From Erysipelotrichaceae bacterium (lineage in GTDB: Bacteria > Bacillota_I > Bacilli_A > RFN20 > CAG-449): a stretch of 64,000 nucleotides of DNA. Both the position numbers and the translations under genes were made by a program. The notes below the pieces were generated by a model, which was given only the letters and a program-made list of their open reading frames with translations, had not been told where the DNA came from and ran no database searches. Positions 23,124 to 31,465 of this stretch are shown here, piece after piece (position 1 is the first letter of the stretch; each line of letters starts with the position of its first letter). The stretch lies in NCBI GenBank assembly GCA_015059045.1, contig SVBD01000001.1, forward strand, positions 1-64,000, written 5' to 3'.

Positions 23124-23162
23124 AGCCAACTGCACTAGCAAATAGAAAGGTTGGCTTTTTTA
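23124..23162 (+). terminator. Terminator of the 21037-23102 operon
   Basis: AGCCAAC (23124-23130) pairs with GTTGGCT (23150-23156) and is followed by six T. The T run merges into the -35 box of the next promoter. Confidence 0.8.
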
Positions 23163-23193
23163 TTGACAAAAATATGCGGGGGGGGGGTATAAT
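23163..23193 (+). promoter_or_regulatory. Poly-G promoter, putative phase-variable promoter 1
   Basis: TTGACA (23163-23168) and TATAAT (23188-23193) are perfect consensus boxes. The 19 bp spacer contains ten consecutive G (23178-23187) directly against the -10. Slippage in the G run would change the spacer length and thus promoter strength; 17 bp would need eight G. A near-identical promoter lies at 30245-30276. Confidence 0.82.
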
Positions 23194-23234
23194 TTTTATG
23201 AATATATAATTAATTATATAAATGGAGGTTCCAT

Positions 23235-25496
23235 ATGAATAATAAGAATAGAAAATCGTTTCGTTTTACATTATCTTTCCTTTTAGCGGCTTTTTTAGGT
23301 TTTGGAATGGTTTCTTGTGGAGAAAATAATAATCCTATAAGTAATCAATCATCTCAAGAATCTATTAGCGAAAATGTTAGTTCTAACGAAGATAGTTCAT
23401 TTGTATCATCTGAATCAAGTGAAGAATCTTCTAATGAAGAAACATCAGAAGAAGAAAGTAGTGAATTACCACCATCTTCAGAAGTAACAAGTGAGGATGC
23501 AACATCAGAAGAAATAAGTTCAAATGTAACAAGTGAAGAATCTTCTAATGAAGAAACATCAGAAGAAGAAAGTAGTGAATTACCACCATCTTCAGAAGTA
23601 ACAAGTGAAGATGCAACATCAGAAGAAATAAGTTCAGAAGTAACAAGTGAAGAATCTTCAAGTGAAGAAACATCAGAAGAAGAAAGTAGTGAATTACCAC
23701 CATCTTCAGAAGTAACAAGTGAAGATGCAACATCAGAAGAAATAAGTTCAGAAGTAACAAGTGAAGAATCTTCAAGCGAAGAAACATCAGAGGAAGAAAG
23801 TATCGAACATACTCATGTTTACGAAGAAGAAATATTAGTAGAACCAACATGTGAAAAAAAAGGTTATACAAAATATACATGTCATTGTGGTGATATTTAT
23901 GTGGAAACTATTCCTGAATTAGGACACGATTTAACTTATCATCCAGCTATTGCTCCATCATGTACAACTCCAGGATGTAATGATTATGAATCATGTAATA
24001 GATGTGATTATACAACTTTAGAAACTATACCAGCATTAGGTCATAATGAAGCAACAACCCCACAAATTGATCCTACATGTACTAGTGTAGGATATACAGA
24101 AGTAATATATTGCTCAGTATGTGATGAAATTTTTGTGGAGAAAGAAGAAATTCCAGCATTGGGACATTCATATGAAGAAGAAATATCAGTAGAACCAACA
24201 TGTACAGAAGAAGGTTATACAAAATATACATGTCATTGTGGTGATATTTATGTGGAAACTATTCCTGAATTAGGACACGATTTAACTTATCATTCAGCTA
24301 TTGCTCCATCATGTACAATACCTGGATGTAATGATTATGAATATTGTAATAGATGTGATTATACAACTTTAGAAGAAATACCAGCATTAGGTCATAATGA
24401 AGTAACAATCCCACAAATTGATCCAACATGTGAAGGAGTAGGATATACAGAAGTAATATATTGCTCAGTATGTGAAGAAATTTTAGTGGATAAAGAAGAA
24501 ATTCCTGCAGTAGGACATACATATGAAGAAGATGTGATAGCTCCAACATGTACAGAAGAAGGTTATACAAAATATACATGTCATTGTGGCGATACATATA
24601 ATGATAATTATGTAGATGTCTTAGGACATACATATGAAGAAGAAGTTGTAGAACCAACATGTACAGAAGAAGGTTATACAAAATATACATGTCATTGTGG
24701 CGGTATATATAAAAATAATTATGTAGATGCTTTAAATCATAATTTTGTTGATGGATTATGTGAAAATTGTGGATGTGAATATTATTATAGTCAAGACTTA
24801 TTATATGATTTAGTTGAAAACAATGGTGAATATTATTATCGTGTTGAAGGTAATGGAAATAATAAAAATAGTGAAATTGTAATTCCTTCAATGCATAATG
24901 GATATCCAGTTAAAGAAATTGGATATGGAGCATTTAAAGGAGTCGGAATAACAAGTCTCATATTCTTAAAAAATTCAAATGTTGAATTAATAGAAGCTAG
25001 TGCATTTGAAAATTGCCAATATTTAAATAAAATAATTTGGCCTGATAGTTTAAAGAAAATAGAACAAAATGCTTTTTTTGGTTGTGTTAAACTTATTAGA
25101 ATTAAATTTCCTGAATCTTTAGAAGAAATTGAACCTGGAATATTCCAAAATTGTGAATCGTTAATTAGTGTTGAATTTCCAAGTAAAATTACTAAATTAA
25201 ATGGTTATTTATTTGGTAATTGTTCTTCATTACAAAAAGTAGTGACCAAAGGTGAAATTGAAACTATTGGCGATAGTTTATTTGCATATTGTAATAAATT
25301 GGAGTACTTTATAATTCCTTGGACTGTAGAAAACATGGGTGGAAAAGTATTTGAAGGCTGTGACAATGTTGTCATTTATTGTGAATTTGAAGAAGAGCAA
25401 TTTGGTTGGTCGGTATTATGGAATCAAGGTAATAGACCTGTTTATTGGAAAGGCCAATGGGAATATGTAGACGGAATTCCTACTCCAATTGAATAA
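23235..25496 (+). CDS. Repeat-rich surface lipoprotein with BspA-type LRR domain
   Basis: A 753-residue exported lipoprotein: signal peptide with lipobox MVSC and lipid Cys at residue 28. Domains in order: a Ser/Glu-rich stalk with three 38-residue tandem repeats plus a partial fourth (62-189); a region of Cys-containing modules (about 192-510) built on 'PTCTEEGYTKYTCHCGD...LGH'; and a C-terminal block (about 530-735) of BspA/LRR_5 repeats (PSMHNGYPVKEIGYGAFKG, FENCQYLNKIIWPDSLKKI). BspA-like proteins mediate binding to host or microbial surfaces. GGAGG precedes the ATG. It is driven by the poly-G promoter, so surface display is probably phase-variable, and its repeats could vary in number. 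Confidence 0.88.
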   Translation: MNNKNRKSFRFTLSFLLAAFLGFGMVSCGENNNPISNQSSQESISENVSSNEDSSFVSSESSEESSNEETSEEESSELPPSSEVTSEDATSEEISSNVTSEESSNEETSEEESSELPPSSEVTSEDATSEEISSEVTSEESSSEETSEEESSELPPSSEVTSEDATSEEISSEVTSEESSSEETSEEESIEHTHVYEEEILVEPTCEKKGYTKYTCHCGDIYVETIPELGHDLTYHPAIAPSCTTPGCNDYESCNRCDYTTLETIPALGHNEATTPQIDPTCTSVGYTEVIYCSVCDEIFVEKEEIPALGHSYEEEISVEPTCTEEGYTKYTCHCGDIYVETIPELGHDLTYHSAIAPSCTIPGCNDYEYCNRCDYTTLEEIPALGHNEVTIPQIDPTCEGVGYTEVIYCSVCEEILVDKEEIPAVGHTYEEDVIAPTCTEEGYTKYTCHCGDTYNDNYVDVLGHTYEEEVVEPTCTEEGYTKYTCHCGGIYKNNYVDALNHNFVDGLCENCGCEYYYSQDLLYDLVENNGEYYYRVEGNGNNKNSEIVIPSMHNGYPVKEIGYGAFKGVGITSLIFLKNSNVELIEASAFENCQYLNKIIWPDSLKKIEQNAFFGCVKLIRIKFPESLEEIEPGIFQNCESLISVEFPSKITKLNGYLFGNCSSLQKVVTKGEIETIGDSLFAYCNKLEYFIIPWTVENMGGKVFEGCDNVVIYCEFEEEQFGWSVLWNQGNRPVYWKGQWEYVDGIPTPIE
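23418..23801 (+). repeat. 114 bp tandem repeats in the Ser/Glu stalk
   Basis: Three units of 114 bp (38 residues each, residues 62-99, 100-137 and 138-175) and a partial fourth, almost identical at the DNA level. They differ mainly by AAT/AGT and a few synonymous changes. The frame is kept, so unit gain or loss would only change stalk length. Confidence 0.9.
23802..24750 (+). repeat. Imperfect Cys-module repeats
   Basis: A large unit of three modules ('PTC..GYTKYTCHCGD', 'PSCT.PGCNDYE.CNRCDY', 'PTC..VGYTEVIYCSVC.E', each closing with LGH or VGH) occurs twice, from about 23810 and again from about 24160. Two further single GYTKYTCHCGD modules follow. DNA identity between copies is high over long stretches, so recombination among them is possible. 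Confidence 0.85.
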
Positions 25497-29262: not shown

Positions 29263-30169
29263 AGTAGTAGTCACAAATGAATTTGAACAAACTCGTTTAG
29301 ATGCATTTTTAGTAACTCTTTTAGATGGTAAATCAAGAAGTTACGCTCAAAAGGTAATTGAAGAAGGTAAATGTCTAGTCAATGGTAAAACAAGCAAACA
29401 CTCTTATAAAATAAGAGTGAATGATGTAATTGAATATGATTTATTAGAAGAAAAACAATTAAACTTAGAAAAGAAAGACATCTCTTTAGATATTATTTAT
29501 CAAGATGAAGATATCGTTGTGATTAATAAACCTAGAGGAATGGTGGTTCACCCTTCTAATGGTCATTATGATGGAGATACATTAGTTAATGCATTATTAT
29601 ATTCAATCAAAGATTTATCAAGCATTAATGGGGTAGTGCGCCCAGGTATTGTTCATCGTATTGATAAAAATACTTCTGGCTTACTTGTAGTCGCTAAAAA
29701 TGATACCGCTCATATTTTCCTTCAAGAACAATTAAAGGATCATTCAATGCATAGAGAATACTATGCTTTAGTGGAAGGAGTAATTCCTCATACTGATATT
29801 AAAATTGATGCGCCAATTGGAAAAGATCCTAAAGATAGATTAAAAAGAGCAATTGATATCTATGAAGGAAAAGACGCAGTAACTCATGTTCACGTTGAAG
29901 AAAGATTTAAAGAACATACACTTGTTTCTTGTAGACTTGAAACTGGTAGAACTCATCAAATTAGAGTTCATTTAAGATATATTAATCACCCAATTGTTGG
30001 TGATCCAGAATATGGTAAAAGACATCAAAAATTCTCTTGTTCAGGACAAATGTTACATGCGTATAAATTAACTTTTATTCATCCAACAACAAAGAAAGAG
30101 ATGACATTTACTTGTCCTAGAGATAGTGAATTTGAATGTGTATTAGAACAAGCAAGAAATTTAAAATAA
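29255..30169 (+). CDS. RluA/RluD-family 23S rRNA pseudouridine synthase
   Basis: A 304-residue enzyme with an N-terminal S4 RNA-binding domain (RLDAFLVTLLDGKSRSYAQKVIEEGKCLVNG is the pattern) and the catalytic core with HRIDKNTSGLLVVAKN, where D137 is the catalytic Asp, and RTHQIRVHL near the end. Size and domain order fit RluD. It overlaps the end of lspA by eight bases. Last gene of the operon. Confidence 0.93.
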   Translation: MNKVVVTNEFEQTRLDAFLVTLLDGKSRSYAQKVIEEGKCLVNGKTSKHSYKIRVNDVIEYDLLEEKQLNLEKKDISLDIIYQDEDIVVINKPRGMVVHPSNGHYDGDTLVNALLYSIKDLSSINGVVRPGIVHRIDKNTSGLLVVAKNDTAHIFLQEQLKDHSMHREYYALVEGVIPHTDIKIDAPIGKDPKDRLKRAIDIYEGKDAVTHVHVEERFKEHTLVSCRLETGRTHQIRVHLRYINHPIVGDPEYGKRHQKFSCSGQMLHAYKLTFIHPTTKKEMTFTCPRDSEFECVLEQARNLK

Positions 30170-30170
30170 A

Positions 30171-30198
30171 AAAAGTATCCGCTCGGATACTTTTTTTT
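30171..30198 (+). terminator. ileS-lspA-rluD operon terminator
   Basis: AAAAGTATCC pairs with GGATACTTTT around a short GC-containing loop, followed by eight T. Confidence 0.9.
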
Positions 30199-30244: not shown

Positions 30245-30276
30245 TTGACAAAAATATGCGGGGGGGGGGGTATAAT
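30245..30276 (+). promoter_or_regulatory. Poly-G promoter, putative phase-variable promoter 2
   Basis: TTGACA (30245-30250) and TATAAT (30271-30276) with a 20 bp spacer that holds eleven consecutive G (30260-30270). The stretch ATTGACAAAAATATGC before the G run is identical to promoter 1 at 23163. At this tract length the spacer is 3 bp longer than optimal, so the promoter may be weak or off in the sequenced cells. Confidence 0.82.
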
Positions 30277-30304: not shown

Positions 30305-31465
30305 ATGGGACAATTAGATAATTATAACCAAATGATTAATGAACTTGAAATTTTTAAAAATTTAAAAATTTCTTCGATGGTTTTAGAAAAAGAAAGTATA
30401 ACGTTAAAAAATAATATTAATGAACAAATGTTAGCAAATATTTTTGATAATTCATATGATCCAAATATAAAACAATATGTTAAAGAATTTTTAAAACAAC
30501 GGGATGATAATAATTTCATTGATAAATTAATTTGTAAAGCAAAACAATCATTAAAAAATAAAATTTATGAAAGCGAATATAAAATGCGTAAATTAAATTG
30601 TAAAAAAATCATCATTAATTTTCTTTTCTCAATATTAATTCTTTGCCTTTTATCTACTGGGATATTTTTATTTATAAAAGAAGGATATTCAAACAATGCA
30701 ACAAGTCTTACTTTAGGGATAATTCCAACTTTTATAACTATTGGTGCTTATTATTTATGGAAATCTGGAAACAATACAAAGTCAATAGGACTTATAATGT
30801 TAGAAATTGGATATTTTATTATTTCTTTGCTCATAATGTATGCCGGTGGTAATGCAACTCATAAAGGTTCTTTACCTTTTTATATTTTTCATTATTTGTT
30901 ATTAGTGGCAATATTTACACTTATTATTAATTGGATACACATATTAAAAAATATAAGGTCAAAAAAAGAGAATTTACATGCAATAGTTCTAAATTGTAAA
31001 AATTACGATTTCAATATGTTTGAATATTATTTTAATAAATTAAATTATTTAGAAAATCAATTAAGTGAATTGAAAAAAAATATAAATAAAACAAATGAAT
31101 TAATTACAGTTGCTAAAAGAAAAGCTAAAATTTTACCTCAAAAATATATTGATTACATTAGTCCGTTTGATAATGTTCCTGCCGTGTTTGATATTTTTAA
31201 TATTGCAAAAGATAAAAGAGCATTTACAATCAATGAAGTTATTAATGTCTATATTGAAGATGAATTTAAAAAGGAGCAAAGACTACATATGAATACTATG
31301 GAAGAATTAAATAAAAAAAGAAATAATTTTTATAATAATGTCATAAATCAAAATAATCAATTGCTAAATGATATTAAAAAACAAGGCAAATATTTGTCGG
31401 AAATTGAAAATAAAATTAAAAACATAGAAATACCTTCTACAATTGATGTAAGAATTATAGATTAA
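30305..31465 (+). CDS. Unknown membrane protein under a poly-G promoter
   Basis: A 386-residue protein. Residues 1-95 are helical and soluble; four membrane helices follow at about 101-125, 130-150, 158-180 and 188-212. A long C-terminal helical region of coiled-coil character (about 215-380) includes FDIFNIAKDKRAFTINEVIN. No signal peptide. No family is recognised with confidence. Lys- and Asn-rich composition sets it apart from neighbouring housekeeping genes, suggesting an accessory gene. AGGGGATA precedes the ATG. Its promoter is a near copy of that of the surface lipoprotein, so the two are probably members of one phase-variable set. Confidence 0.7.
   Translation: MGQLDNYNQMINELEIFKNLKISSMVLEKESITLKNNINEQMLANIFDNSYDPNIKQYVKEFLKQRDDNNFIDKLICKAKQSLKNKIYESEYKMRKLNCKKIIINFLFSILILCLLSTGIFLFIKEGYSNNATSLTLGIIPTFITIGAYYLWKSGNNTKSIGLIMLEIGYFIISLLIMYAGGNATHKGSLPFYIFHYLLLVAIFTLIINWIHILKNIRSKKENLHAIVLNCKNYDFNMFEYYFNKLNYLENQLSELKKNINKTNELITVAKRKAKILPQKYIDYISPFDNVPAVFDIFNIAKDKRAFTINEVINVYIEDEFKKEQRLHMNTMEELNKKRNNFYNNVINQNNQLLNDIKKQGKYLSEIENKIKNIEIPSTIDVRIID

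Follow-up and report, generated by a model that had tools for sequence, protein, structure and literature searches.

Phase variation through slippage in promoters is best known from pathogens. In Neisseria meningitidis, a tract of 9-11 G between the -35 and -10 boxes of the surface protein gene porA sets expression by its length, the change from 11 G to 10 G and then to 9 G lowering expression 2-fold and 13-fold, respectively (PMC3639595). A poly-G tract also separates the -35 and -10 boxes of Treponema pallidum tp0126, an outer-membrane OmpW homologue of a spirochaete, and transcription is best when the spacer measures 17 nt (PMC7864442). In the gut commensal Bifidobacterium breve, the G10 and G11 tracts of the switches that govern surface structures (pili) slip readily and their pattern changes in mice, and other G-tracts in promoter spacers are mentioned by the authors (PMC9187656).

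The window analyzed here, i.e., a whole stretch of DNA of 64,000 bases with a GC content of roughly 25-33%, carries a promoter that the first-pass annotation had likened to these spacers, in particular to those of Neisseria. Unlike porA, it belongs to another phylum, combines perfect TTGACA and TATAAT boxes with a G tract that abuts the -10 box, and recurs several times per genome in front of unrelated genes, while its switching is proposed from the sequence. The gene behind it encodes a predicted lipoprotein of Gram-positive type, in contrast to the OmpW homologue of T. pallidum, and the tracts studied in B. breve lie in reading frames and not in promoters. Taking all lines of evidence together, we consider it very likely that this is a slippage-driven, phase-variable sigma-A-type promoter of the porA/tp0126 working type, presumably assembled in a weak or OFF state.

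Two poly-G promoters and the genes behind them

The first promoter, TTGACAAAAATATGCGGGGGGGGGGTATAAT, occupies positions 23163-23193 of the forward strand, which carries all features described in this section, and consists of a perfect -35 box TTGACA (23163-23168), a 9-nt stretch of spacer outside the G-run, AAAATATGC, whose last base is C (23169-23177), ten G (23178-23187), and a perfect -10 box TATAAT (23188-23193), exactly the anatomy and 19-bp spacer reported in the first-pass annotation. It is followed by a Shine-Dalgarno sequence GGAGG (23224-23228) and preceded by a hairpin with the stem AGCCAACT/GGTTGGCT and a T-run (23124-23161). Judging from RNA folding (-14.9 kcal/mol, z -2.9), this hairpin probably serves the preceding gene as an intrinsic terminator; a simple terminator scan did not pick it up, its loop being too long. 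The annotation had also judged the G-run improbable by chance, and rightly so: 27 G-runs in the window are 4 long and four are 5 long, lengths 6-9 do not occur, and a single run each of 10 and 11 follows, and dinucleotide-preserving shuffles yielded 0.07 G8 matches against the 7 overlapping ones observed.

The run of 11 belongs to a second promoter that the annotation did not include, TTGACAAAAATATGC-G11-TATAAT (30245-30276), with TTGACA at 30245-30250, the same AAAATATGC, the G11 tract at 30260-30270, TATAAT at 30271-30276, and a 20-bp spacer. Both promoters thus share a 15-nt lead, followed by 10 and 11 G, respectively. A terminator hairpin (30168-30197, fold z -5.8) separates the second promoter from the pseudouridine synthase gene that precedes it; as terminator-like hairpins are found 5' of both, each promoter probably drives its gene insulated from read-through.

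The gene driven by the first promoter (23235-25496) encodes a predicted lipoprotein of 753 aa, laid out as a Ser/Glu-rich repeat stalk, Cys-rich repeats and C-terminal BspA-type LRR_5 repeats. The earlier reading of a BspA-like product was confirmed by the match to LRR_5 (PF13306; E = 5.4e-35; 120.5 bits, cut-off 27.7). The N-terminus has a putative signal peptide that includes the lipobox-like site MVSC; by eye, SFLLAAFLGFGMVS-C would suit a lipobox, Met occupying position -3. The protein is presumably exposed on the surface. Its gene contains in-frame tandem repeats of 114 bp at 97% and 351 bp at 91% identity (window 23416-23802 and 23823-24594), through which recombination could add size variation.

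The second promoter is followed by a gene (30305-31465) for an unrelated 386-aa protein with predicted multiple TM segments and coiled coils, both judged by eye. A Pfam search of this protein gave no match, and within the genomes of the order it has no close relative, weak partial matches alone being found. Close orthologues of the lipoprotein, of the 386-aa protein and of the protein behind a third promoter on contig C15 (see below) were absent from both the genus and the family, so that these driven genes are accessory.

Recurrence and anatomy of the promoter type

The assembly (1.44 Mb in 33 contigs) holds five G-runs of at least 9, all of which end 0-1 bp before a -10-like box, so the whole-genome search that the first-pass annotation had proposed confirmed the recurrence of the promoter type. 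Besides the two in the window, these are TTGACA-TTTTCAAAC-G9-T-TATAAT at C15:39158 (19-bp spacer), TTGACA-N11-G9-TATTAT at C21:27301 (20-bp spacer), and G9-TATAAT with a poor -35 at C21:28663, which precedes a short soluble protein, i.e., a driven gene that is not of the surface type. Both G8 runs of the genome lie outside promoters. In the gene at C21:27301 (L247), the lipoprotein signal (..VSCGGDYSS) and the start codon lie one frame apart, with a T7 run between them; this gene may be frame-switched as well, or broken.

Among the listed G-runs of at least 9 in 18 genomes of the family, 20/46 are embedded in promoters (a -35 with at most one mismatch and a -10 with at most two mismatches around the run), compared with 0/46 when the strings were reversed. 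The remaining 26 lie outside promoters, and some of them, mainly in the genomes G008-G010, may be frame-shifting tracts in genes. As 13 of the 20 promoter-embedded tracts have a spacer of exactly 19 bp, variation between species is modest. The strict pattern TTGACA-N5-15-G7-TATAAT was present in 4/18 genomes of the family, 7/279 of the order and 19/395 of the class, with no match of the reversed control at any of the three levels, and its poly-C equivalent (C7 in the same pattern) was found in 0/395 class genomes. The tract on the non-template strand is therefore always G and never C (19 vs. 0 genomes, n = 395); positive GC skew accounts for part of this bias, though perhaps not for the whole.

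Across species-representative genomes, at least 119 stretches carry the pattern, mostly in gut MAGs. The matches listed come from Bacilli, Clostridia and Saccharibacteria, in some cases from spirochaetes and in a few from isolates, among them Streptobacillus notomytis, Blautia luti and Streptococcus sp. A phage origin of the promoter was rejected, since a search of 2.9 million viral contigs yielded only 2 matches. A genome of another family, G172, contains an identical TTGACAAAAATATGC-G11-TATAAT; joint transfer of promoter and gene was also rejected in this case, given that ~45-50 bp alone could be aligned and that the downstream gene is unrelated. The 15-nt lead occurs in front of two unrelated genes in the window (23163-23178 and 30245-30260) and also (L179, L217) in G172 and, followed by a GTG8 tract, in G465, which belong to two other families, without homology between the genes; its origin may be common or convergent.

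Two further loci were recorded. At L246 (G601 contig 6, 8001-27500), at least eight genes stand in tandem; seven encode secreted paralogues (MKNLKMFAI...) and have their own TTGACA-N-(A)CG8/9-TATAAT each, while the promoter tract of the eighth gene is interrupted (GAGGGGGG); the array resembles a combinatorial phase-variable gene family. At L064, in a Clostridia MAG, the gene just 3' of the poly-G tract has 84% DNA identity over 723 bp to the gene at L169, located in a genome of the window's own genus (G017), which points to recent transfer or mis-binning.

The anatomy of the promoter type was described from 162 distinct poly-G promoters, the type recurring in other Bacilli, in numerous Clostridia and in further MAGs, chiefly from the gut. 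The number of G peaks at 9 (74 promoters) and 10 (37), and the spacers measure 15 (19), 16 (20), 17 (11), 18 (40), 19 (50) or 20 bp (14), i.e., more than half of the promoters (90/162) are spaced at 18-19 bp, and 15-16 bp forms a second mode (39/162). In ordinary TTGACA/TATAAT pairs that lack a G-run on these contigs, the most frequent spacer is 17 bp (18/33), a length reached by 11/162 of the poly-G promoters (p 1e-9, related promoters not being independent). A dip at 17 bp was considered as a stronger claim, since a first sample (n = 131) had 6 promoters at this length against 18.9 expected by permutation; in an independent class/order sample (n = 45), 7 were at 17 bp and none at 16 bp. As the dip was only partly repeated, we retain the weaker statement that the mode is 18-19 bp and not the 17 bp of ordinary promoters. 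The flanks of the tract vary freely except for the terminal base, which is C in 101/162 promoters (expected fraction 0.17, p 7e-39). In this AT-rich DNA, C precedes G-runs inside and outside promoters alike, in ~62-76% of cases, the family runs of at least 9 contributing 35/46.

The first genes behind these promoters are enriched in signal-peptide/TM-like N-termini according to a crude hydrophobicity rule (82/111 vs. 91/419 other genes on the same contigs; odds ratio 10, p 4e-24). Among 115 driven genes, a set reduced by hand, the domain found most often is LRR_5 (BspA; 9), and InlB-type, Listeria-Bacteroides repeat, DUF285, Ig-like and choline-binding repeat domains were also detected. The window locus therefore shares with known spacer-length phase-variable promoters a homopolymer between the -35 and -10 boxes, a tract that far exceeds the length expected by chance and is limited to promoters, and a driven gene of the surface or variable type, as seen from the predicted LRR_5 lipoprotein and from the enrichment in the class.

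Tract length, slippage and competing explanations

Tract lengths were compared in 32 pairs of homologous promoters (66-98% identity), which represent different genes or species, with one genome per species. Fifteen pairs have the same number of G, another 15 differ by one G and the last 2 by two G, where exact counts in MAGs are uncertain by ~1 and tract conservation is over-stated because the pairs were found through both members having tracts. The number of G hence differs in 17/32 pairs, e.g., L086/L098 (86% over 937 bp, 8 vs. 9 G). Tract length is nevertheless not wildly variable, given the 19-bp spacer in 13/20 family tracts and the equal G numbers of two pairs of sister species, L223/L236 (98%) and L222/L237 (90%).

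We infer slippage in living cells, its effect on transcription, the ON length and the benefit along the following lines. Slipped-strand mispairing during replication would add or remove G, each slip shifting the distance between the -35 and -10 boxes by 1 bp, and transcription would rise as the spacer nears 17 bp (G8 in both window promoters) and fall away from it. That 17 bp would be the ON state and 19 bp a weak one is suggested by the published tp0126 and porA promoters together with the 17-bp peak of the ordinary promoters analyzed here. The promoter would thus work in a graded manner. The assembled 19- and 20-bp states are predicted to be weak or OFF, most assembled copies of the type would likewise be sub-optimal, and the loss of two G from the tract at 23178 or of three G from the tract at 30260 would restore 17 bp. 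If the five promoters of the genome switch independently, mixed populations could arise that differ in the BspA-like lipoprotein and in other, mostly membrane or surface, proteins, with a possible benefit in immune, phage or niche diversification. The earlier reading of slippage-driven spacer variation is supported, as it fits the anatomy, the recurrence, the type of gene and the changes in G number.

The sole serious rival is a structural G-tract with its own optimum, i.e., the run would be a fixed part of a weak or tuned constitutive promoter, whose stiff, A-like DNA shifts the optimum to 18-19 bp, so that the 18-19 mode is the working state and length changes are incidental. It draws on the predominance of 18-19 bp among the 162 promoters and of 19 bp in the family, on the C that caps the run in 101/162 and on the location of G on the non-template strand throughout, a strict bias that slippage alone does not predict. 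A single structural optimum agrees poorly, however, with the second mode at 15-16 bp and with the different G numbers in 17/32 homologous pairs, and the published tp0126 poly-G promoter works best at 17 (PMC7864442). Moreover, the tracts are pure homopolymers, the most slippage-prone form, and the genes behind them are such as contingency loci usually contain. We consequently regard the structural explanation as unlikely.

The other explanations appear far less probable still. G-runs that arose by chance or as a mutational by-product without any role would account for the 26/46 family runs outside promoters, but this reading is strongly disfavoured by the position statistics: 5/5 runs of the genome lie at -10 boxes, 20/46 family runs are in promoters vs. 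0 when reversed, and the reversed pattern is missing from all 395 class genomes; we give it hardly any weight. An artefact of sequencing or assembly (two-colour poly-G calls, binning) might be suspected where most sequences are MAGs with G counts uncertain by ~1, yet the runs are embedded in unique sequence and always at one exact position, and the genomes stem from many projects and include cultured isolates, making it a highly improbable source of the pattern. An operator or regulator-binding site that includes the G-run, with a protein and not slippage acting as the switch, could explain the 15-nt lead TTGACAAAAATATGC shared by the window promoters and G172; it is again very improbable, considering that, the terminal C excepted, the flanks of the 162 promoters vary freely and that no palindrome is apparent. 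Slippage-driven variation of the spacer thus remains the preferred reading.

A possible phase-variable surface repertoire in uncultured gut Bacilli and Clostridia

The mechanism proposed here is of a known kind; its wide spread among uncultured gut Bacilli and Clostridia and its uniform layout, by contrast, look new. A partial literature search found no survey or description of poly-G promoters in these lineages and, because its coverage is incomplete, lends weak support to novelty. It is conceivable, and we suggest it tentatively, that these bacteria possess a phase-variable surface repertoire that is large and so far undescribed and in which a single standard part is reused (TTGACA, 6-10 nt with C as the usual last base, G9-G10 restricted to the non-template strand, and TATAAT), rested 1-2 bp off the 17-bp optimum, so that expression would be low by default and single slips would turn genes ON. 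Promoter slippage appears here to be a recurring part of uncultured gut commensals, attached to adhesin-like, repeat-rich surface genes. Should reads show variable tract lengths, counting Gs in existing metagenomes would directly reveal which surface genes of unculturable bacteria are ON or OFF, and in vivo selection on the surface proteins of commensals would become testable without culture.
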